Below, piece after piece: positions 30,997-42,395 of a DNA stretch of 62,450 nucleotides. Source of the DNA: a virus; IMG/VR virus record IMGVR_UViG_3300042892_000658, positions 1 through 62,450 of that record, one strand, 5' to 3'. Within the stretch, counting starts at the first letter, position 1; each line of letters starts with the position of its first letter. Under the pieces are notes generated by a model. The model was given only the letters and a program-made list of their open reading frames with translations, ran no database searches and was not told the DNA's origin. The translations under genes were made by a program, and so were the position numbers.

Positions 30997-31998
30997 TTAT
31001 TTGATTCGTTTAATTAAGTCTTTAATTTTAATGCCTACTTCTGGAGTACCGTTAAATCCTGTACCTGGTTTTAGTGCTTTGAAATGTTCTGTTACTGCCG
31101 CATAGTCATCATTTGGTAGCGGAACATACTGTACTTCTTTTACTAACTTGGGCGCATTTTCTAAATAGAAATTTACAAATGCTTTTACTTCTGGTCTGAA
31201 CGCAGCCGCTGTTGCGTTTACATAGATAAACAATGGACGACTTAATGGTTGATATGTACCGTTCATAACTGCTTCCGGACTTGGTATTACCGGTGTTGCT
31301 GTTCCTTTAGCGATAATAGGAATAGCACGCAATTTGTCTTGGTTAGATTCGTAATAAGCATAACCAAAGTAACCCAAACTACCCGGATTGCCTGCTACCC
31401 CTGTTACTAGAACATTGTCATCTTCACTTGGGGTATAGTCACTGCGACTTGATTTAGCTTTACCGTTGACCGCTTCAGTGAAGTAGTCGAATGTACCAGA
31501 AGCCGTACCTGGGCCGTATAAAGCTAAGGCTTTGTCTGGGTAAGCTGAATTAACTTGTTTCCAGTTTTTAACTGAGCTGCCCGGTGCCCAAATTTTGTTT
31601 AGTTCTGCTACTGTTAAACTTTTCACCCAGTCATTTTTACTGTTTACTACTACAGTAAGCGCATCGTAGGCAATTGGTAATTCAATGTACTGTACACCTG
31701 CTTCTTTACAAGCATCCATTTCTTTTTGTGAAATAGGACGGCTAGCATCACTGATGTCAGTTTCGCCACGGCAGAATTTTTTGAAACCGCCACCTGTGCC
31801 ACTTTCACCTACAGTTACTTTGACACCTGTTTTCTTTTGGAATTCTTCTGCTACTGCTTCTGATATTGGATAGACAGTTGAACTGCCATCTATTTTGATC
31901 ATTTTGTCTGCGGCTTGAACTTGTTTTAATCCGGCCATTGTTACAGCAAATGCTATTACTACATAATACATTATTGATTTAACCTGTTGTATGGTCAT
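30997..31998 (-). CDS. pstS: Phosphate-binding protein PstS
   Basis: 333 residues. Signal peptide cut near residue 29 (VQA), then IDGSSTVYPI, GESGTGGGFKKFCRGETDISDASRPI and GPGTASGTFDYF, which form the phosphate-binding loops of PstS. It works in the periplasm with the host PstCAB transporter, which is absent here. The 7-4-7 direct repeat upstream resembles a Pho box, so host PhoB could switch it on when phosphate is scarce, as shown for pstS in cyanophages. Ribosome site AAGGGGA. Confidence 0.92.
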   Translation of the reverse strand: MTIQQVKSIMYYVVIAFAVTMAGLKQVQAADKMIKIDGSSTVYPISEAVAEEFQKKTGVKVTVGESGTGGGFKKFCRGETDISDASRPISQKEMDACKEAGVQYIELPIAYDALTVVVNSKNDWVKSLTVAELNKIWAPGSSVKNWKQVNSAYPDKALALYGPGTASGTFDYFTEAVNGKAKSSRSDYTPSEDDNVLVTGVAGNPGSLGYFGYAYYESNQDKLRAIPIIAKGTATPVIPSPEAVMNGTYQPLSRPLFIYVNATAAAFRPEVKAFVNFYLENAPKLVKEVQYVPLPNDDYAAVTEHFKALKPGTGFNGTPEVGIKIKDLIKRIK

Positions 31999-32136: not shown

Positions 32137-33345
32137 TTAGAAGAATAAGATAGCACCTGCTGATACCGAACGTGATTTACCTTCTGCACCGTTTTGTGCT
32201 TCTGATTTAACGTCTGAGTATTCAGCTACTAAGTTTACGTGTTTTGTAAGTGGGTGATAAGCACCAACAGTCCACATTTCGTTTTTCGAAACTAAAGCTG
32301 TAGCTGTTTCGCTACTGTTACGATCTAATTTACTTTGACCATAACTTACACCAAGTTTAGTTGCTGTAGGCAATGTGTATGTACCTTGCACGTAACCGCC
32401 GTTTGAATCACGACGTTTACCTGTAGCATCAAAGCCGTCTAGCAATTGAATTGTACGACCAATACCTTTACCATCATAGTAGTAAGCAGTCAAGCCATAC
32501 GGACCAGCAGCTAAGTTTGTACCAACGTCCCAAGCATAAGCGCGATCATCTGCACTAGCACCAGTTACGCCTTCAACTTTTTGTGTGATAGCTGATGACC
32601 AAACTTTGGCAGCGATAGGGCCTTCTAATGAGTATGATACTTTACCTTCAAATGCTGGCTGAGCACCGCCACGTCCTGTTGAAGTGGCTGAAGCGTTAGT
32701 TACTGCGCTAGTAGCATTTAAGTCAGCTGATTGAGCATTCCATGCTTGCGTTACGCCAGCTGTGAAGCTAAAGCCATTGAAGTTTGGTGACGTGTAAGCA
32801 ATTTGTGATTTCCAGTCAGCGTACATATAGCCTGTACCAATACGACCTAGTGTAGTTGTATTACCTGCTAAGGCACCAGCACCTGCACCAACGCCTAATA
32901 ATGTCATGTCGTTTAAGATAGCATCGCTAGCAAAAATACCTAAGTCTTTACCTAGTTTTACACTGCCCCATGATTTGTCACCGATGGTTAAGAATGCTTG
33001 ACGATTTTCTTGATTAGCGCCTTGATCGCCGCCCTGTGTTGTAGAAGCACCAGGATTGATAGCGATCGTAAAACCAATGTCTAGATCATTTTGACGTGAT
33101 TTACCGGAAATTGATAATACGTTTGGTAATAAACCAGTTGTAATATTTGATTCGTTACGTTGACCATTGGCATTAGGACCGCCAAGGCCACCAACCACTG
33201 CACTGCCTGTGCCACGTGTGTTTGTGTAGTAAGCGTTAACTACGCCACCGATGTCTAGAGTCCAATCACCTGCTGGAATTACGATGCCAGCGTGGGCAGT
33301 TGAATACATACTTGCTAATAATGTTGCTAATAATAATTTCTTCAT
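32137..33345 (-). CDS. General porin (betaproteobacterial type)
   Basis: 402 residues. Signal peptide cut near residue 19 (AHA), then a 16-strand-type barrel with short Gly/Asn loops (RQNDLDIGFTIAINPG, LGKDLGIFASDA, KLGVSYGQSKLD) and a C-terminal Phe (AGAILFF) as the assembly signal. The style is that of Gram-negative porins of Betaproteobacteria. It has its own strong promoter and terminator. Nutrient entry or replacement of the phage receptor are both possible roles. Confidence 0.85.
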   Translation of the reverse strand: MKKLLLATLLASMYSTAHAGIVIPAGDWTLDIGGVVNAYYTNTRGTGSAVVGGLGGPNANGQRNESNITTGLLPNVLSISGKSRQNDLDIGFTIAINPGASTTQGGDQGANQENRQAFLTIGDKSWGSVKLGKDLGIFASDAILNDMTLLGVGAGAGALAGNTTTLGRIGTGYMYADWKSQIAYTSPNFNGFSFTAGVTQAWNAQSADLNATSAVTNASATSTGRGGAQPAFEGKVSYSLEGPIAAKVWSSAITQKVEGVTGASADDRAYAWDVGTNLAAGPYGLTAYYYDGKGIGRTIQLLDGFDATGKRRDSNGGYVQGTYTLPTATKLGVSYGQSKLDRNSSETATALVSKNEMWTVGAYHPLTKHVNLVAEYSDVKSEAQNGAEGKSRSVSAGAILFF

Positions 33346-33427: not shown

Positions 33428-33453
33428 AAAATGTTGCCTTTTGACAACATTTT
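33428..33453 (-). terminator. Second hairpin after the SAH hydrolase gene
   Basis: A 9-bp stem AAAATGTTG/CAACATTTT with an 8-base loop and CTT after it, directly upstream of the porin -35 box. Probably the back-up terminator of the accessory operon. Confidence 0.55.
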
Positions 33454-33472
33454 TGGTAAAATTGATAAGAAA

Positions 33473-33492
33473 GTGTGGCAGAAATGCCACAC
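33473..33492 (-). terminator. Hairpin after the SAH hydrolase gene
   Basis: An 8-bp perfect stem GTGTGGCA/TGCCACAC around TTTC, followed by TTTCTT. It begins 7 bases after the stop codon. Confidence 0.6.
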
Positions 33493-33498
33493 ATTTGC

Positions 33499-34785
33499 TT
33501 AGTAACGATAAGTATCTGACTTATATGGGCCTTCAACTCTAACACCAATATACTTGGCTTGATCAGCTGACAACTCTGTTAGTTGCGCACCAATCTGTGC
33601 CAGGTGTAACTTGGCTACTTTTTCATCTAGATGTTTTGGCAACAAATGAATACTACCTGTATTGTAATCTTCCCAATTTTGGAACATTTCAATTTGTGCT
33701 AACACTTGATTAGTAAAACTGTTTGACATAACAAAACTAGGATGTCCTGTGCCGCACCCTAAGTTTACTAGACGACCTTTGGCTAAAATAATAAGTTTAT
33801 TACCGCTAGGCATGGTAACGTGATCAACTTGTGGTTTAATTTCATCCCACTCGTAGTTAGCTAAACTAGCAATGTCAATCTCACTGTCGAAATGTCCAAT
33901 ATTACACACAATAGCATTGTGCTTCATCGTATTCATATGGTCATGTGTGATAACATTGATATTACCTGTAGCTGTTACAAAAATGTCTGCTTTATCTGCG
34001 GCATAGTCCATAGTAACCACACGATAGCCTTCCATGGCCGCTTGTAAGGCACAAATTGGATCTACTTCAGTTACCCAGACCTGCGCACTTAGAGCACGCA
34101 ATGCGGCGGCACTACCTTTACCCACATCACCAAAACCTGCTACTACTGTTACTTTACCAGCAATCATCACGTCAGTGGCACGTTTGATTCCGTCCACTAA
34201 ACTTTCACGGCAACCATATAGATTATCAAACTTAGTTTTAGTTACGCTATCGTTTACATTAATAGCACGTAAGTGGAATTCTCCATTGGCGATCGCTTCA
34301 TTGATTTTATGAATGCCAGTGGTTGTTTCTTCAGTAACACCACGGATTTCATTTATCAAATCTGGACGGTTATGGTGCACCCAATATGTTAGATCATGCC
34401 CGTCATCTAGCAGCATGTTGGGACGCCAATTATCAGGGCCACTAAGTGTTTTCTCAATACACCACCAGTATTCTTCTTCTGTTTCGCCCTTCCACGCAAA
34501 CACAGGAATGCCCAAGTCTGCTAACGCGGCCGCGGCGTGGTCTTGTGTACTAAAAATGTTACAGCTAGACCAGCGCACTTCTGCGCCCAAGGCAACTAGT
34601 GTCTGCACTAATACCGCAGTTTGAATAGTCATATGTAGACTACCTGCAATACGAGCGCCTTTGAGTGGTTGTGTTAGTTTGTACTCTTCTCTGACTGCAA
34701 TTAATCCGGGCATTTCCGTTTCTGCAATGGCTATTTCTTTGTGCCCCCAGGCTGCTAGACTGATATCTTTTACTTTGAAATCCAT
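33499..34785 (-). CDS. ahcY: S-adenosylhomocysteine hydrolase
   Basis: 428 residues. The NAD-binding [13 protein letters not shown], the substrate-side segment [11 protein letters not shown], the conserved HFDSEIDIA and the C-terminal KSDTYRY are intact, so it looks active. The enzyme removes SAH, the product inhibitor of methyltransferases, giving adenosine and homocysteine. It is last in a coupled accessory operon with two methyltransferases upstream and a B12-type radical SAM protein, all potential SAH producers. Full-length and rare in T4-like phages. Confidence 0.95.
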
Positions 34786-34818
34786 GTTTTATCCTATAAT
34801 TAATATAATATATACTTA

Positions 34819-35505
34819 TTAAACTACCTGTTCTAGTAAATGTTTTTCTAAATTATCTATTAGATAGTTTGAATTTTTTTCTTTTTTTGCATTTAATACT
34901 GTATGGGCACCGACTGACCAGGTGAAATATGGGTTCATAAATTCGTACCCAACTAACCCAAATTGCACTTTCATATGTCGGGTTAAATTCTCTTCGTTAT
35001 CAAAGTAACTTTCCATAAATTCTCGACTACCGCCCGTGGTCATTGACATCATTACCCGACGGCCTGTTAAAAATTTATTATGCTCTTGCTTGCCGCCTTT
35101 GGTTTCTACGTTGTTTAATGTAAATAATGCATCGTACGCAAATACATTTTCAATGTATGCTTTAAGCAACGATGGGTACGTCCACCACCACAAGGGGCAC
35201 TGTATATAAAGTAAGTCTGCCTCTTTTAATTTTTCTATTTCTTGCAGTGCAAACTTAGGCAATAATCCGGCTTTATTTGCTAGTAACCATTTGTCAGTAA
35301 AACTGCGTATCTTGCTAGTAATACCCGGTAAACAAAAGTCACGTTTAAAATTATTCTCCAATCCTCTTGGATCAAAATTTGACCTATACAAGTCTAGTAT
35401 ATTAACTTCGTGCCCGTTGGATTTAAAACAGCCAACTGCACGTTCAAATAGTGCATGATTTAGGCTTGTTTTTGCTGGGTGCACCAGCATGGCATAAATT
35501 TTCAT
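34819..35505 (-). CDS. NAD(P)H dehydrogenase, flavodoxin-like fold (MdaB/KefF type)
   Basis: 228 residues. KIYAMLVHPAKTSLNHAL, the central PLWWWTYPSLLKAYIENVF and MMSMTTGGSREF follow the FMN/FAD-binding quinone-reductase fold. It starts in an ATGA overlap with the radical SAM gene, so the two are translationally coupled. It could hand electrons to the radical SAM enzyme or the desaturase of the same operon, which is inference. Confidence 0.8.
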   Translation of the reverse strand: MKIYAMLVHPAKTSLNHALFERAVGCFKSNGHEVNILDLYRSNFDPRGLENNFKRDFCLPGITSKIRSFTDKWLLANKAGLLPKFALQEIEKLKEADLLYIQCPLWWWTYPSLLKAYIENVFAYDALFTLNNVETKGGKQEHNKFLTGRRVMMSMTTGGSREFMESYFDNEENLTRHMKVQFGLVGYEFMNPYFTWSVGAHTVLNAKKEKNSNYLIDNLEKHLLEQVV

Positions 35506-37388
35506 TTTACAAATACCCCTAATAGTTGTTTTTTACCTCGCATGATATTTCCTGTATCTAAAAATAATTTATACATTGATATCACCGAATTTATATTATA
35601 TCTTTTAGTTTTTTTAAAACTTATCTTATTCATCCCTTGCCATAGTGTTTTTCCTATGTTATTTTTATTAACATAAAGTTTTTGTTCACCAGTGATGATT
35701 TCATAAGGTATGTTGTATTTTTCCTTTATGTATTCTAAAATATCCGATCGAAATCTATTATCAAGAAATACCAAGGCAACAAAATAATATCCACCATAGA
35801 TATTATTATTGTCAATATCAAACGTACAGTCTAATTTAGGATCATTAAGAATTTCCTGCCATCTGTTGTATATCGTTTGATAGTAGTTGCTAGATTTGAA
35901 GAAATTATTAAAAATATCTCGTATAATCACGCCGTGACGACGGCCCGCATGCTTCTGTCTTATCCAATCTAATGTATTACTAAAATAGCCGCCTTGCACA
36001 AATAGATTATATAGACTAGTAGACAACAACATTTCTAAATATTCGTCGGTGGTATAAGTATCACAGCCCACAACTATCTCATGTTGTGCATGAGTCTCCG
36101 GATAACTCCACCCGTTGGTCTTGGCTACTGTTTTTATACCCCATGTTTTCCTATATTCTATTCCATAACTAGGGGCTTCGGGCAGCAAGATCCATTCAAA
36201 CCACTGGACAGATAATCTATAATTGCCAAATACATCTAGCTCATGATAGAATTTATCTAAGGTCATGCCAGGTAATCCCATAATGATTTCTACATACAAA
36301 GGTAATTTAGTATTTTTAGCAATAGGTTCAAATACAGATAATTGCTTTTCAAAGGGAATATTTTTTCGATCGATATTTTTTAATATATCGTTGTCTAACG
36401 TCTGCAGACTTAGTTTGATTTCTTTATTGTGGCTAAGATTATTATGTATGTCTGTTTCTAATATCGATTTAATAGCATCAAGTCTATTTTCAGTTTTAGC
36501 AAATCCACCATAGCCCATCCTAAACGTAGCACGTGATTCTTTTTTGCGTTTAACAATATAGTTGATAATATCTATGTCTCGATCACCAAATATACCAAAA
36601 TTAGCATCGGCTAGATATAGATAGGTAAGATCAAATGTAACCAATGCATCTATATCTTTTTTAACTGAGTCAGGGCTCTTTTGTATCACAGTTGTTCCAA
36701 TGCCGCCACCCCAATCACAGTATGTGCAGCCGTACGGGCAACCGCGGGTAGTTTCAACAATACTTAACAACATAGAGTCGTTGAAGTTGATTTTTTTAAA
36801 CGTTTCAAATTCTTTAAGGGCCGATTGCTGTGCCAAAAATGCACTGTAGTCATAGTGAAATTCTTTACGCTGACTTCGAGTCATAGACTGGTTGCTGGAC
36901 AACATAGCTCTAGATTTACTTGGATATCTGGTATCTGTTAATAATTTCCAATCAACAACACCGCTGTCATAATTGTCTAGTAGTTCTTTGAAAAATACTT
37001 CGCCGTAACAGTCCCCTAGGTGACTAGCATCTAAATAAGGATGTTTCTTAAACCAATCAATATCATGCTTAAGATATTGATGCGGGCCGCCACTAACTAC
37101 TAGGCATTTAGGAAATGTTTCTTTAACCCATGTGGCTATTTCATGTGCCAGGCCAAAATTCCACACATACAAACTAACAGCAAACACATCTGGTTTAGTG
37201 CGTAGTAGTTCGTGTTTAATTTTATTAATATCAGTAGCATCATAGCAGTCAAGATAACACGGATGCCAGATCCATTCATCTTTATGTTTGCCATGCATCT
37301 CATAATAGGTTTTGGCACTGGCCCACAATGCTGGCAACCATATCTCACTGCTAAATCTAGGAAAGTTTGCTATGACAATGGTTTTCAT
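35502..37388 (-). CDS. B12-binding-domain radical SAM protein
   Basis: 628 residues. The N-terminal Rossmann-like region (KPDVFAVSLYVWNFGLA, VVSGGPHQ) resembles a cobalamin-binding domain, followed by C217-P-Y-G-C221-T-Y-C224 in TRGCPYGCTYC, the [4Fe-4S] site, and then SLQTLDNDIL and EIIMGLPGMT typical of B12-radical SAM enzymes. This class methylates unactivated carbons or rearranges rings. It overlaps both neighbours by 4 bp (ATGA). Substrate unknown. Confidence 0.8.
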   Translation of the reverse strand: MKTIVIANFPRFSSEIWLPALWASAKTYYEMHGKHKDEWIWHPCYLDCYDATDINKIKHELLRTKPDVFAVSLYVWNFGLAHEIATWVKETFPKCLVVSGGPHQYLKHDIDWFKKHPYLDASHLGDCYGEVFFKELLDNYDSGVVDWKLLTDTRYPSKSRAMLSSNQSMTRSQRKEFHYDYSAFLAQQSALKEFETFKKINFNDSMLLSIVETTRGCPYGCTYCDWGGGIGTTVIQKSPDSVKKDIDALVTFDLTYLYLADANFGIFGDRDIDIINYIVKRKKESRATFRMGYGGFAKTENRLDAIKSILETDIHNNLSHNKEIKLSLQTLDNDILKNIDRKNIPFEKQLSVFEPIAKNTKLPLYVEIIMGLPGMTLDKFYHELDVFGNYRLSVQWFEWILLPEAPSYGIEYRKTWGIKTVAKTNGWSYPETHAQHEIVVGCDTYTTDEYLEMLLSTSLYNLFVQGGYFSNTLDWIRQKHAGRRHGVIIRDIFNNFFKSSNYYQTIYNRWQEILNDPKLDCTFDIDNNNIYGGYYFVALVFLDNRFRSDILEYIKEKYNIPYEIITGEQKLYVNKNNIGKTLWQGMNKISFKKTKRYNINSVISMYKLFLDTGNIMRGKKQLLGVFVK

Positions 37389-38227
37389 TTAGCCATTCCT
37401 AATTTTAGCAATTTAATTATATAACCACCAAGATCTATTTCAAACCAACGATAACTATGGCTTTGTTGCTGTATCCAACGATGTGTGTGATGATTGTTGT
37501 GCAACAACGAACTAAAAAGGCCGCATCCTAACAAATAATGCGTTATCAATCTATTGTTGCTGTTATTGGGGACATCTTCATTTCTATACCCTAACAATTT
37601 ACTGTGCCCTAAACTAGTAGTAAGGAACGTAATTATACTAATGATGATACGGCCCATAAACACAATTTTAAACAATACCACCGGCATTACTAACCATAAC
37701 ACAAGCCAATATAATAATGTTAACGGTATTTTAAATTCTTCACAGAAAAACGTCCAGTTGTCTTCTAATATATCTTTATGTATAATAGATTGTCTTGTCA
37801 CATAAGTGTCTCTATTAGAATAGTCTGTTAGAGTTTGATATAAAAACATAATAGGACTCAGACTACAAACCGTATACCAATGTAGAGGAAAGTACAAATT
37901 ATCTCTGCCGGATTGATCTGTTTGACTGTGATGATTTCCGTGATTAATACAGATATTGGTTAACGGTCCGTTGGCATGATCAACTGTGATTAGGAATGTT
38001 AATATTTTGTAGGTTAAACTTTTTGTATTAATCTTAAATAAGTAGTGTGAACAAATAAGATGACCGAATAACTCATTGATTGTAACGGTATAAAATGTCG
38101 CAAGGACATACCAATACCATTCAGTATTAATATGTTTCAAAGTTACTGCTAGTTCGTTAACACCAGCGACCCAAGCCACTGATGTTAAGACAAACAGTAT
38201 AACATTGCTAGGATTAAGCGTGAACAT
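37385..38227 (-). CDS. Membrane fatty-acid desaturase
   Basis: 280 residues from the ATG of MFTLNPSNV; the codons before it start at a TTG inside the TauD-like gene. Three histidine boxes are complete: HLICSH (56-61), HGNHH (96-100) and HNNHH (243-247), the di-iron ligands of acyl-CoA/acyl-lipid desaturases. Four hydrophobic segments surround them. The family puts double bonds into membrane fatty acyl chains using O2 and an electron donor; a hydroxylase or related activity cannot be excluded. Coupled to the radical SAM gene by ATGA. Confidence 0.8.
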   Translation of the reverse strand: MFTLNPSNVILFVLTSVAWVAGVNELAVTLKHINTEWYWYVLATFYTVTINELFGHLICSHYLFKINTKSLTYKILTFLITVDHANGPLTNICINHGNHHSQTDQSGRDNLYFPLHWYTVCSLSPIMFLYQTLTDYSNRDTYVTRQSIIHKDILEDNWTFFCEEFKIPLTLLYWLVLWLVMPVVLFKIVFMGRIIISIITFLTTSLGHSKLLGYRNEDVPNNSNNRLITHYLLGCGLFSSLLHNNHHTHRWIQQQSHSYRWFEIDLGGYIIKLLKLGMAK

Positions 38228-39329
38228 ACTTTTTAGCAAATGCTTTAAAATACCCTAATAAATCACGAGGGGGGAGTTTAAAGTTTTTAATGCCAGCAAT
38301 CTTAACGATATGGCGTATTTCGTTAGCGTACTCGTTGGCATAGGGTTGCTGTAGGTATGGCTGGTATGCACCATCTTGAAGATTGGTATAATCATGAGCA
38401 ATACGATAACATAGTCGACCTTCAATATTGCCCAATCTGCGATGTAGGGTGATTGAATTGTCAAACAACATTAAATCATTATTGTTCTTATACCAATGGT
38501 CATACATATATTTTTCAACAAATAGTTCTTTATTGATACGTTTAAATACCTTATCGCTTTCTTTCTTAGTAAGGCCTTTGATACTGTAAGCAGTATTGAT
38601 ACTATAATGCAATCCTGTAATACCGCCTGGGCTACGGATAACCATTGGGATTTCTCTGTCCTCTTCTGGACACATGTTGGCGTGCATGATAGCATCTTGT
38701 TCTTTATTCAATCCGGGATTAATTTTACCAGGAGTAAAGCGATGCAAGATAATCATGTCATCTAGCTCTCTACGGAAACTATCATTTACATTTTCATAAT
38801 AGTCTGGTGTTGTGACAAATCCCGTAGCACTACCAACAACATTTTGTTGTGCAAACAATGCAACACCCGGAGTCCAAGTTAAGGTACCGCTTTCGTTGCT
38901 GTGCCACAATAGTTCGCCTTCGGCGAACAGTCCTTTAGGATTACCGTCTTCATCATAGCCGCCAGTCACACGACTAACATCATAACCGCTGGCTGTGCGT
39001 TCTTGTGTTTTAAACAATGATCGAATCGCCACTGCATCTTCTGCATCTAAATAGTCAGCACTTTCTTGTGCATCATTGACAATGATAGGCCAAGGTCTAT
39101 CATATTTTTTAACTAGATAGTTTTTAAGACCGTACCGTGTTTCGCCAAATTTAAGAACACGATCTACAAAGTGGTCTTTAGTTAAATTGGTATTACGAAT
39201 AACAGTAACAAGTCCCTGCATATGAATCTTGCCTATTTCTAACCATTCATCATCTGACAAATGATTAAAATCTACATCATCGACGTAAGTGCCAAATCGG
39301 CCAAGACCAGGAATCTTTGATAATTTCAT
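38214..39329 (-). CDS. TauD/TfdA-like Fe(II)/2-oxoglutarate oxygenase homologue, altered metal site
   Basis: 371 residues. LLWHSNESGTLTWTPGVALFA and DLMLFDNSITLHRR...RIAHDY align with the HxD and distal H/Arg motifs of TauD enzymes. H143 and H296 are kept, but the position of the metal-binding Asp is N145 (H-S-N). That is unusual; in halogenases the residue is Ala or Gly. It heads the coupled run to the desaturase. Oxygenase, halogenase-like or inactive binding role remains open. Confidence 0.7.
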   Translation of the reverse strand: MKLSKIPGLGRFGTYVDDVDFNHLSDDEWLEIGKIHMQGLVTVIRNTNLTKDHFVDRVLKFGETRYGLKNYLVKKYDRPWPIIVNDAQESADYLDAEDAVAIRSLFKTQERTASGYDVSRVTGGYDEDGNPKGLFAEGELLWHSNESGTLTWTPGVALFAQQNVVGSATGFVTTPDYYENVNDSFRRELDDMIILHRFTPGKINPGLNKEQDAIMHANMCPEEDREIPMVIRSPGGITGLHYSINTAYSIKGLTKKESDKVFKRINKELFVEKYMYDHWYKNNNDLMLFDNSITLHRRLGNIEGRLCYRIAHDYTNLQDGAYQPYLQQPYANEYANEIRHIVKIAGIKNFKLPPRDLLGYFKAFAKKYVHA

Positions 39330-39477
39330 AGAAAATTCTCCTCAATATTTTAATAGTATAACAGATTTATTTTAATATTGCTAGTGAAGAATTTCACATA
39401 CGACATAGAGGGCCCATTTCGAAGGTCATCTACTCGACGTCAACACTGAAGGTTGGCGTTGCATTAATATTTATACG
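39330..39477 (-). other. 148-bp intergenic region before the TauD-like gene
   Basis: It contains a perfect late octamer TATAAATA (39468-39475) at the far end, no open frame of interest, and an extended -10-like TGTTATACT about 25 bp before the gene. The middle is unusually GC-rich for this genome. No terminator recognised. Confidence 0.4.
39468..39475 (-). promoter_or_regulatory. Perfect T4 late octamer TATAAATA
   Basis: Matches the T4 late consensus exactly. It lies 138 bp before the TauD-like start, so it would give a long leader for the accessory operon. Confidence 0.5.
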
Positions 39478-40173
39478 TTAGCGTTGTTTAGTGAAAATAT
39501 ATAGAACCAACCCACCATTTTCACTATTAAACCAAGCTAAAAAGTCTACAAATTTGTTAGAAATGCTAGGGTTCGCTGATTGAAATTCTAAGTCACTACA
39601 CATGTTGCGTACTTGCTTATTACTAAAACTTAACTCAAATGGATTATTCTCTTGATCTTGATACAACGTATCACAATTGTAGTTAATGTTAAAGAACCTT
39701 TTGAGTATTTTACCGTTTGGGTTATACAGTGCCAACAGTAACTTTCCACCAGGTTTAAGTAACTGTTTAATTTTAGCCAAGGCTTTTTCATATTGTGGAA
39801 TATGGTGTAACACTCCGCAACAGATAATTACATCATATTTCTTGCTAGTTTTAAAATTTAAAAAATCTGTTTTAACCCATTTAACATTATTGATTCCGTT
39901 AGTTGTAGCAAAGTTACTAGCATAATCAATGCTATCACTAAAGTCAACTGCGGTGAATCTACTATTCTTGTATTTGTCAGCGAACAGATTCGATACTAAT
40001 CCTGTCCCACAACCAACATCTAATACATCCATATTATCATTTAACATTAGATCGATCTCACGTAAATAGATATTGTGTATGCCTTGTTCTTCATAGAACT
40101 TCAAATCTTCCAAACTATAGCGGCCGGGAAAATGTAGATTACTATAAAATTGTTTAATTTGTTCAGTGATCAT
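39478..40173 (-). CDS. Class I SAM-dependent methyltransferase
   Basis: 231 residues, with VLDVGCGTGL (motif I, about 50-59), FTAVDFSD, DVIICCGVLHHIPQ and LKPGGKLLLALYNP, a UbiE/small-molecule-type methyltransferase. It overlaps the SGNH-like gene by ATGA. Substrate unknown; a metabolite is more likely than DNA because no DPPY-like motif is present. Confidence 0.8.
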   Translation of the reverse strand: MITEQIKQFYSNLHFPGRYSLEDLKFYEEQGIHNIYLREIDLMLNDNMDVLDVGCGTGLVSNLFADKYKNSRFTAVDFSDSIDYASNFATTNGINNVKWVKTDFLNFKTSKKYDVIICCGVLHHIPQYEKALAKIKQLLKPGGKLLLALYNPNGKILKRFFNINYNCDTLYQDQENNPFELSFSNKQVRNMCSDLEFQSANPSISNKFVDFLAWFNSENGGLVLYIFTKQR

Positions 40174-41084
40174 CTAAGACTTTCTAGTAATTCTTTATAT
40201 TTTGCTGATAACAGATCTTCTGTTGAATCAATAATAAAATCGTTAGGTGAAAATTCTGGTATTGGCATATTAATGGTTTCTTGGGATATCTTTTTAGCAA
40301 GTTCTCTATGCTTACCTAATTTAGGATTTTGATTTAAAATTAGTTCTAAGGCATAGTCATGATGTGCTAGACTGTTAGGATGATGATCTGTTTCATGCTT
40401 TAATACAACATATTCTTTATTGTTAATAAAGTATTCCCAAATACCAGAAAACTCCTTGGGATTAAATGGATTTTTTGGCGGATTAATAAATTTTGTCCAG
40501 TCTATTAAATTTATTAGATTTTTTATAGGCGACAACTCTGTTATTTGTTTAATTGTTTGTATTTCACCAGCAGAGATATCATCTTTTTCTTGATAGACAG
40601 TTTTATATCTAGGATAAAATTTAGGTCTCCCATCTGCCCATATATTTTTAGAAGAATGCATAGTATATGAGCATCCTATTTTTTCTAACAACAACTGAGT
40701 CTGATAAATGATCTGCAACTGATCAACTATCATGTTTGTAAAACTCGAGTACAGGTCTGGGTGTGTTCTGTATAATCCCATGTATGGATTATCCTTGCTA
40801 AACCAAATTTTTCCCTCTGTGGCAGGGAAAAATCCTGCTACTTGTTTGTTTTTGACCCATTCTTCGTCGTACCATAAACCAATTCGATGATTCTCGGCCC
40901 ACATAATATTAATATGATCTTTTTCTGTAAATGAATTTATTTTATCAAGCAAGATCCAATAGATATTTTGATTACCGTATCCTTTATTAGCCAAATTTGT
41001 CACAGGTTGATCGTAGACTTGTAGCCAATCAGCCCACGTAGGCCAATACCATTTAGTCATACTACACCCAAGTGTATAAATCAT
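40170..41084 (-). CDS. SGNH-hydrolase-like protein
   Basis: 304 residues. The opening YTLGCSMTKWYWPTWADWL has the Ser of block I (G-C-S), NLANKGYGNQNI fits block II, and DHHPNSLAHHDYA the Asp/His block V of SGNH/GDSL esterases. The middle lacks a clear block III Asn. Phage relatives occur among surface-glycan and accessory genes; deacetylase or acyl-transfer activity is inferred. Coupled to the methyltransferase. Confidence 0.6.
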   Translation of the reverse strand: MIYTLGCSMTKWYWPTWADWLQVYDQPVTNLANKGYGNQNIYWILLDKINSFTEKDHINIMWAENHRIGLWYDEEWVKNKQVAGFFPATEGKIWFSKDNPYMGLYRTHPDLYSSFTNMIVDQLQIIYQTQLLLEKIGCSYTMHSSKNIWADGRPKFYPRYKTVYQEKDDISAGEIQTIKQITELSPIKNLINLIDWTKFINPPKNPFNPKEFSGIWEYFINNKEYVVLKHETDHHPNSLAHHDYALELILNQNPKLGKHRELAKKISQETINMPIPEFSPNDFIIDSTEDLLSAKYKELLESLR

Positions 41085-41087
41085 TGA

Positions 41088-41285
41088 TTAGTCCTTGGGG
41101 GCTTCTCTATTAGGTTTTTGTGCCATTGCTGGATCACTAAATTTGCGACCTTTGTTGGCTACATACGTTGATTGAGCATCAATCATTGCTCGTTTAAAAA
41201 TGCCACGTGCTACAGGATCAATGATATTAGCAAGTTTAATCTTATTCATCTTGCCAAATTTAAATGTTGAGTTTGTTTTTGCCAT
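41088..41285 (-). CDS. Small basic conserved phage protein, unknown
   Basis: 65 residues, basic (KFGKMNKIKLANIIDPVARGIFKRAMIDAQ). I recall this IIDP...FK+AMIDA pattern from T4-like phages of aquatic bacteria, with no function. It directly follows the omega-like gene (9-bp gap), perhaps as a partner. Confidence 0.6.
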   Translation of the reverse strand: MAKTNSTFKFGKMNKIKLANIIDPVARGIFKRAMIDAQSTYVANKGRKFSDPAMAQKPNREAPKD

Positions 41286-41294
41286 GCTGTTCTC

Positions 41295-41540
41295 CTATCG
41301 AATTTTATCTAAATATTCTTTACCAATTGTACCAGTAGCGATCTCATACAATGCTGTTACGTTGGATTTATTTTCATATGTTATTTTAACTCCGTTGCGT
41401 TCTTGGAATGTGCGTTGAGTAGCAATTTCTCTAGAACGTGTTGCTGCCGCTAAAATTAATTTAAATTGATTATTGTCAAATACTGCTAACGCATCATCAA
41501 TGTTATAAACTTCTATGGAACTTTTTACTCGTGCTTTCAT
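41295..41540 (-). CDS. RNA polymerase omega subunit-like protein
   Basis: 81 residues. IDDALAVFDNNQFKLILAAATRSREIAT followed by NVTALYEIATGTIG matches the RpoZ family core (N-x-F-x-L-V-x-x-A-x-x-R-A-R-Q-L then V-x-A-L-x-E-I). Omega stabilises the beta-prime subunit of bacterial RNA polymerase. A phage copy could replace or modify host omega. It has its own sigma70 promoter and is the first gene of the accessory operon. Confidence 0.75.
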   Translation of the reverse strand: MKARVKSSIEVYNIDDALAVFDNNQFKLILAAATRSREIATQRTFQERNGVKITYENKSNVTALYEIATGTIGKEYLDKIR

Positions 41541-41571
41541 AATAAATCCTATATAGGTGGGTAGTTGTTTT

Positions 41572-41600
41572 AGTATACACTAACTGTTAGATTTAGTCAA
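41572..41600 (-). promoter_or_regulatory. Sigma70 promoter TTGACT-17-TATACT
   Basis: -35 at 41595-41600, -10 at 41572-41577, overlapping the stop of the upstream gene. It drives the omega-like gene and the accessory genes behind it. Confidence 0.75.
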
Positions 41601-42395
41601 GTCTTTTATGTGTTTAATTACAGTATTGGCGCTTTTAATATTCATGTATTTTAACGGCTGTGTCAGAAACTTCATTGATTGATTCTGTGTCCAATCGTAT
41701 GCATAGAATTCCTGCCAAGTGTCTATATGTGGTTGTAGATGCATTTGACTTAATGCCCAATTATCTGTTTTTGCTGTTATATACATACCGAGCAATTCGT
41801 ACTCACTTAGCCACTTGTTATGATCGAACGGTCTGGCTCGTTCTATAGCCTGCAGCCAAGTACATTGATTACGTTCTTCTAATAGTTGTTTTAAATCTTT
41901 CCAGTAAGCTCGAGTAAATGGCATCAGCTCATTTACCAAACTATATTTGACTGTTTGAGCTAATCCGGTTATTTGTGTGATCATTTCTACATATATTTTT
42001 TGATAAGGATTCCACAAGTTCTCAGCTCGCAATATTAGTTTATTGTCTTCGAGCCAAGTAAATGGTTTTAGCAGTACTTGGTCGCAGTCTTGTATTAGAT
42101 AATAGTCGCTGTCAAAGTGATCTATAGCACAAAGTTTTAAGGCCTGTTGATAAAACCAATGATCGTGCTTCCACGCAGATAAATCATAGTAATCTTCAAA
42201 ATAAAGATCGTCGAGTAATGTGTAAGTAGAAGTGTTCAATCCGTATTCTGCAAACACACTGTCTATTTTATGTTGGGGATAGGGACTGATGATATAAGTT
42301 ACATCGGGTTTAGGATTTATATAGTTGTCAAACGTCAGAGTAACAGCAGCTTCATTAATCCTACTAGGACCAATAAGTAAAATGCGTGTTATCAT
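41580..42395 (-). CDS. Glycosyltransferase-like protein (DUF6492-type)
   Basis: 271 residues. ITRILLIGPSRINEAAV, KHDHWFYQQALKL and YYLIQDCDQVLLKPF (with DCD as the likely DxD) follow the DUF6492 glycosyltransferase-like family seen among surface-glycan genes. It lies between an unknown beta-rich gene and the omega-like gene. Confidence 0.65.
   Translation of the reverse strand: MITRILLIGPSRINEAAVTLTFDNYINPKPDVTYIISPYPQHKIDSVFAEYGLNTSTYTLLDDLYFEDYYDLSAWKHDHWFYQQALKLCAIDHFDSDYYLIQDCDQVLLKPFTWLEDNKLILRAENLWNPYQKIYVEMITQITGLAQTVKYSLVNELMPFTRAYWKDLKQLLEERNQCTWLQAIERARPFDHNKWLSEYELLGMYITAKTDNWALSQMHLQPHIDTWQEFYAYDWTQNQSMKFLTQPLKYMNIKSANTVIKHIKDLTKSNS

Follow-up and report, generated by a model that had tools for sequence, protein, structure and literature searches.

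The minus strand of IMG/VR virus record IMGVR_UViG_3300042892_000658 carries, between positions 41540 and 33499, a run of partly overlapping genes for a predicted methyltransferase, a TauD-like oxygenase, a membrane desaturase and a cobalamin-dependent radical S-adenosylmethionine (SAM) enzyme, and it raises the question of what such a set of phage-encoded enzymes might act upon. The record is a whole viral contig of 62,450 bases, referred to here as the window. In the reading preferred here, held with middling confidence, six genes of the run constitute a translationally coupled, exchangeable acyl-tailoring set that occupies a hypervariable cargo slot in the genomes of a group of freshwater jumbo phages. 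An earlier reading of the letters alone (the sequence-only reading) had proposed a phage pathway that edits a lipid or small molecule, and this remains the best reading given the recurrence of the families and the presence of acyl carrier proteins (ACPs), desaturases and NeuD-family enzymes in alternative gene sets.

A cassette between backbone genes

In the order in which they are read, the elements of the locus are:

41295..41540, minus strand: RNA polymerase omega-like protein, backbone gene (TIGR00690, 25.1 bits, just past the cut-off of 23.6)
41088..41285, minus strand: conserved open reading frame (ORF) of 65 aa (S65), backbone gene and 5' border of the slot, adjoining omega or preceding the slot in most relatives
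40170..41084, minus strand: SGNH/GDSL-like protein by predicted fold, 304 aa, possibly an acyl-esterase or acyltransferase
39478..40173, minus strand: class I SAM-dependent methyltransferase (MT) by profile, 231 aa (PF13847, E 4.9e-22; PF13649, E 1e-20)
39330..39477, minus strand: conserved MT-TauD intergenic gap of 148 nt, with a TATAAATA octamer at 39468-39475
38214..39329, minus strand: TauD/TfdA-fold homologue of 2-oxoglutarate (2OG)-Fe(II) oxygenases (PF02668, E 1.8e-17; phrog_24590, E 2.6e-103)
37385..38227, minus strand: predicted membrane fatty-acyl desaturase, stearoyl-CoA-desaturase-like by histidine boxes and fold match, 280 aa from its ATG (the ORF list had a TTG start further upstream)
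35502..37388, minus strand: predicted cobalamin-dependent radical SAM methyltransferase (RSAM), TokK/CysS-like by its matches to 7kdx and 9n1b, 628 aa
34819..35505, minus strand: Flavodoxin_2 protein, an NAD(P)H:acceptor oxidoreductase by profile, KefF/NQO-like (PF02525, E 2.2e-29; NF007280, E 1.3e-17)
33499..34785, minus strand: S-adenosylhomocysteine (SAH) hydrolase (AHCY) by profile, backbone gene and 3' border of the slot (TIGR00936, 601 bits, above the equivalog cut-off of 498)

The same-direction coupling described in the sequence-only reading was confirmed, with overlaps of 4 nt (ATGA) between SGNH and MT, 14 nt between TauD and desaturase, and 4 nt at both the desaturase/RSAM and RSAM/Flavodoxin_2 junctions. 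Its gene identities also hold, with refinements: RSAM resembles TokK and CysS, the desaturase has a stearoyl-CoA desaturase (SCD)-like predicted fold, and the TauD-like protein lacks the iron-binding carboxylate.

Viral contigs were scanned with RSAM, desaturase, TauD, MT and AHCY, yielding 177 non-redundant loci including the window (cited below by L numbers), and the slot was counted in the 29 viral loci where omega or S65 precedes AHCY; these contigs are not independent samples. Alignment of the loci revealed a conserved backbone in which the slot that separates omega/S65 from AHCY varies: it holds acyl-type cassettes in 14 loci, a lone QueF-like ORF in seven, other ORFs in two and nothing in six. 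In 25 viral loci AHCY and omega are found together, RSAM and the rest of the cassette being absent from most of them, and in many relatives AHCY adjoins omega/S65 directly. Omega, S65 and AHCY are thus backbone genes of this jumbo-phage group, independent of the cassette, and the real unit is SGNH-MT-TauD-desaturase-RSAM-Flavodoxin_2, inserted between them. The operon-wide unit of the sequence-only reading therefore stands for the six genes from SGNH to Flavodoxin_2 but not for omega, S65 and AHCY, which occur without the rest; the inclusion of SAH hydrolase and omega in the pathway is not supported, given the 25 largely cassette-free loci. AHCY was accordingly rejected as a dedicated pathway member; it is a general phage gene, which the cassette may exploit.

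Among the 14 filled slots, desaturases are found in 11, NeuD-family acyltransferases (TIGR03570, E 9e-35, with LpxA/LpxD-like matches) in seven, SGNH proteins in five and ACPs (PF00550, E 2.6e-16) in three, an ACP standing directly before MT-RSAM-Flavodoxin_2 in L006 and L214. SGNH and NeuD genes never share a slot, a separation whose chance probability of about 0.01 would hold for independent loci only, and these are not independent. In L301 and L307 the same slot pairs two desaturases and a NeuD enzyme with a different B12-radical SAM protein, whose nearest models are those of PhpK, ladderane-lipid and HpnJ; this is an independent route to similar cargo.

A quite unlikely alternative is that the slot is simply a hot-spot in which independently useful genes gather between omega and AHCY, co-transcribed by position and sharing no pathway. 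The QueF-like, empty and other fillings fit such a hot-spot, its borders, omega and AHCY, are plainly unrelated to each other, and RSAM stands alone between Toprim-domain and DnaB-like helicase genes in L015 and L016. MT and RSAM, however, are inseparable, adjoining in all seven slots that carry either, and the same families meet elsewhere in a different order: RSAM, MT, desaturase, SGNH and TauD recur together, shuffled, in other contexts (L125, L218, L241, L179), including an RSAM-TauD-MT trio with 4-nt overlaps in unrelated surroundings outside the slot (L241/L242) and a desaturase-TauD-TauD-RSAM run, likewise outside it (L179). The co-occurrence search that the sequence-only reading had called for was thereby run, and its concern that homologues might never be adjacent in related phages is dispelled by their adjacency in relatives.

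That the coupled acyl-type set is maintained follows from dN/dS values of 0.03-0.11 for all cassette genes where computable (against relatives A and B). The genes are under purifying selection, which argues against the inactive desaturase or TauD-like protein that the sequence-only reading had named as fatal to it. Relative to contig A, dS is 0.3-0.8 in most flanking genes, 1.1-1.8 in MT, RSAM, Flavodoxin_2 and AHCY, saturated in SGNH, and 0.87, 0.59 and 0.39 in the desaturase, TauD and porin genes, respectively. Such a mosaic would be expected from the exchange of parts of the cassette among phages.

Enzymes of the cassette

The closest solved structures to RSAM are TokK (7kdx, E 3e-60) and CysS (9n1b, E 1.5e-46), with which it shares domain order, the CxxxCxxC motif with its 4Fe-4S cysteines and the Trp under cobalt. 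It matches the Radical_SAM profile (E 1.8e-10), and both CxxxCxxC (C217/C221/C224) and W76 are invariant in 15 viral homologues. A Rossmann cobalamin domain is indicated by alignment to TokK residues 63-479, although the Pfam B12-binding match falls below its cut-off; W76 aligns with TokK Trp76, the residue beneath the cobalt (PMC13331322). RSAM differs from TokK and CysS in being phage-encoded, in a lipid-type cassette and far below the cut-off of the KedN5 subfamily (NF033712, 134 against 700 bits). CysS makes contact with its substrate at the pantetheine tail (PMC12846815), so that a carrier- or pantetheine-bound acyl substrate would be natural for RSAM. None of the cellular relatives found exceeds 32% identity, and they occur in contexts such as polysaccharide-like genes (Prochlorococcus, L063) and genes for β-ketoacyl-ACP synthase (KAS) III and acyl-ligase-like proteins (Bdellovibrionaceae, L032); given this distance and the diversity of contexts by eye, cellular neighbourhoods were taken as hints only. 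The viral relatives in L015 and L016 (about 50%) lack the usual partners of the gene.

The desaturase presents the expected histidine boxes (HLICSH, HGNHH and HNNHH in the window), with histidines in HxxxxH (57/62), HxxHH (97/100/101), H209 and NNHH (245-248); in most relatives Gln takes the place of the His that opens the third box. Its structure model, poorly resolved towards the C terminus, has a single meaningful match in the Protein Data Bank, human SCD (4zyo; probability 1.00, TM 0.55, E 0.038), and the protein can be aligned with desaturases that are PF00487-positive and occupy this slot in other phages. It is modelled as folding like SCD, with an acyl substrate predicted. Histidine boxes and fold are common to stearoyl-CoA and DesA-type desaturases, whereas the window protein belongs to a phage-specific clade; cellular matches are weak (best E 4e-9 in 399 genomes).

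The TauD-like protein has the fold by profile (PF02668, 64.5 bits against a cut-off of 27), and shares fold and distal His with TauD/TfdA enzymes and with the proteins of cyanophages P-HM1 and P-HM2 (phrog_24590), these cyanophage proteins being 45% identical to it. In place of the 2-His-1-carboxylate facial triad (HxD...H) of TauD/TfdA 2OG oxygenases, it has H143-x-N145...H296. The usual HxD/E...H triad is absent throughout its family: of 62 distinct viral homologues, 60 have HxN (WHSNE) and the other two HxH (WHMHS). HxN is also found in the TauD relatives of P-HM2, MED4-213 and Mosig, while a different, canonical TauD in the same slot of L315 keeps HxD. With its metal-binding Asp replaced by Asn, the protein departs from the standard 2OG dioxygenases. 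Such enzymes can be active without the carboxylate, as with AspH, which uses two histidines only, and halogenases lacking the acid (PMC10947486). Taurine catabolism was rejected on metal-ligand motif and gene context, and the label 'taurine catabolism dioxygenase' given to phrog_24590 in marine phages is unsupported by the active site. No cellular homologue of the family was found at E 1e-10 in 399 genomes, in a search without positive control. A related gene lies in a phage cluster (L188:1737-11253) that has the look of a natural-product gene cluster: it also holds a tryptophan halogenase, a class III aminotransferase, two radical SAM enzymes and an amidinotransferase-like ORF recognized solely from its sequence.

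The SGNH-like protein has no Pfam or PHROG match. The best matches of its AlphaFold model (pLDDT 61) are three SGNH enzymes, rhamnogalacturonan acetylesterase (1deo, probability 0.99), 3c1u (0.96) and 2o14 (0.96), all with E >= 0.01, and an N-terminal GCS and a C-terminal DxH, one residue shorter than the usual DxxH, are invariant in eight viral homologues. The identities of MT, Flavodoxin_2 and SAH hydrolase are clear from their profiles.

Three observations speak for an alternative considered unlikely, in which the product of the cassette is a diffusible small molecule, be it antibiotic-like, a signal or a cofactor mimic, and the envelope is not edited. TokK, CysS and KedN5 are natural-product enzymes; the related TauD neighbourhood of L188/L189 contains, besides further radical SAM enzymes, the tryptophan halogenase (PF04820, E 4.7e-90) and the class III aminotransferase; and the cultured Pelagibacter phage Mosig EXVC030M has a cluster of TauD, FA_desaturase, FMN reductase, methylase and aminotransferase genes. 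Although Mosig groups similar functions, only its TauD is homologous to that of the window (23%), its other genes matching no desaturase, MT or Flavodoxin_2 family here. The cassette moreover contains no chain-building enzyme (KAS, non-ribosomal peptide synthetase or polyketide synthase) or exporter, and the alternative cargo consists mainly of desaturases with NeuD sugar acyltransferases, a combination typical of the decoration of lipids or glycans.

Host phage and flanking signals

The window probably represents part of the genome of an uncultured jumbo phage of a freshwater group, since its UvsX is 66% identical to those of jumbo myophages CBB and GAP32 and the CBB gene order of terminase, single-stranded DNA-binding protein and UvsX is matched (the second gene being assigned from position only). 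Among 50,697 cultured phage records, no matches were obtained for the RSAM, desaturase, MT and SGNH families, nor, among cultured phage records, for the omega-like protein and porin. Two further features follow AHCY:

33431..33492, minus strand: two terminator-like hairpins 3' of AHCY, by minimum free energy (MFE) against shuffles
32137..33345, minus strand: Gram-negative porin (Porin_4), a variable outer-membrane gene adjoining the slot (PF13609, E 2.8e-22)

The hairpins noted at the operon end were borne out by the shuffle test (MFE -26.6 against -11.3 +/- 2.7 kcal/mol, z = -5.6), and at least one of them is largely preserved in two relatives. Promoters are less certain. The proposed sigma70 site exists as TTGACT-17-TATACT (10/12 match) 32 nt upstream of omega, but 58 promoter-like sites occur in the region against 44 expected; likewise, the gap of 148 bp and its octamer are present, but octamers of the TATAAATA type number 3 in the window against 9.2 expected by chance. 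With promoter-like sites abundant and the octamer not above chance, promoters are not established, and a late promoter in the MT-TauD gap was rejected. The gap has a mean column identity of 86% in three phages, with the octamer intact in one of two relatives.

Directly downstream of AHCY lie the porin and a PstS phosphate-binding protein (30997-31998), and a DUF6492-like protein (41580-42395) precedes omega in the window and several relatives. The porin, which is swapped for other genes in relatives, may be functionally linked to the cassette. Its homologues are split between a class sampled from a gammaproteobacterial metagenome-assembled genome (best 44%) and alphaproteobacterial plasmids (35%), and host assignment through it was dropped.

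A proposed acyl-tailoring pathway and its possible use

The acyl-tailoring pathway is favoured because what the alternative cargos share is acyl chemistry: carrier protein, desaturase, C-methylation, oxidation and acyl transfer. It is further favoured by the pantetheine contact of CysS together with the ACP and ACP synthase of P-HM1 and P-HM2, cultured cyanophages that carry a TauD relative of the window and uniquely share these two genes (PMC3037559). We infer acyl chemistry, with substrate and product, along the following lines. The substrate would be an acyl chain on an ACP, a pantetheine arm or a lipid; the SCD-like di-iron enzyme would desaturate it, the TokK/CysS-like B12 enzyme would C-methylate an unactivated carbon and the HxN TauD-like enzyme would oxidize (or halogenate) it. 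The class I MT would then methylate the product, and the SGNH protein might release or transfer the acyl group, filling the place of the NeuD-type acyltransferases of other phages. The flavoprotein is a possible electron donor, and SAH would be cleared by the phage-encoded hydrolase.

Several observations weigh against this proposal. QueF-like cargo (134-135 aa, PF14489, E 1.7e-17; L310:6534-6938, L300, L311 and others), the sole cargo in seven relatives and additional to other cargo in three, demonstrates that acyl-related genes are not all that the slot carries; no ACP is present in the window, and ACPs occur in only three of the 14 filled slots; and the viral contigs do not count as independent samples. 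Pfam FA_desaturase gives no direct match to the window desaturase, and the SGNH structure model is of low confidence at its pLDDT of 61. TauD relatives, finally, often lie near Asp_Arg_Hydrox genes and tail-fibre-like genes that are named from sequence with no Pfam family, a setting that would also fit a role of TauD, RSAM and MT in modifying a tail fibre or another virion protein. Such protein modification is nevertheless highly improbable, as it leaves the membrane desaturases, ACPs and NeuD enzymes of the slot unexplained and no tail-fibre gene was identified adjoining the window cassette.

As to the most likely end use of the acyl-tailoring pathway, the NeuD acyltransferases and the neighbouring porin suggest, more weakly, that lipids or glycans of the host envelope are decorated in the course of infection; the phage might gain by masking receptors or excluding superinfecting phages. 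In bacterial surface glycans, amino sugars are known to receive exotic acyl groups assembled on carrier proteins. The lipopolysaccharide gene clusters of large cyanophages are likewise phage cargo possibly altering the host surface, but with other enzymes, sugar synthesis there contrasting with acyl tailoring here (PMC3037559). Within the library searched, no paper on phage desaturase/ACP or B12-radical SAM cassettes was found. A bolder, doubtful extension is that a group of freshwater jumbo phages swaps whole acyl-tailoring pathways (desaturase, B12-radical methylase, 2-His-1-Asn oxygenase and acyl transfer) at one slot, each phage writing a different acyl mark on the host envelope, and that the HxN TauD family represents new, phage-specific non-haem iron chemistry.

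If the acyl-tailoring reading is true, phages would carry complete, exchangeable pathways whose chemistry, B12-radical methylation of an unactivated carbon, is otherwise known from antibiotic biosynthesis, and the editing of lipids or acyl-sugars would be added to the effects of phages on their hosts. It would also offer testable new enzymes, including a conserved oxygenase family that lacks the usual carboxylate ligand to iron.

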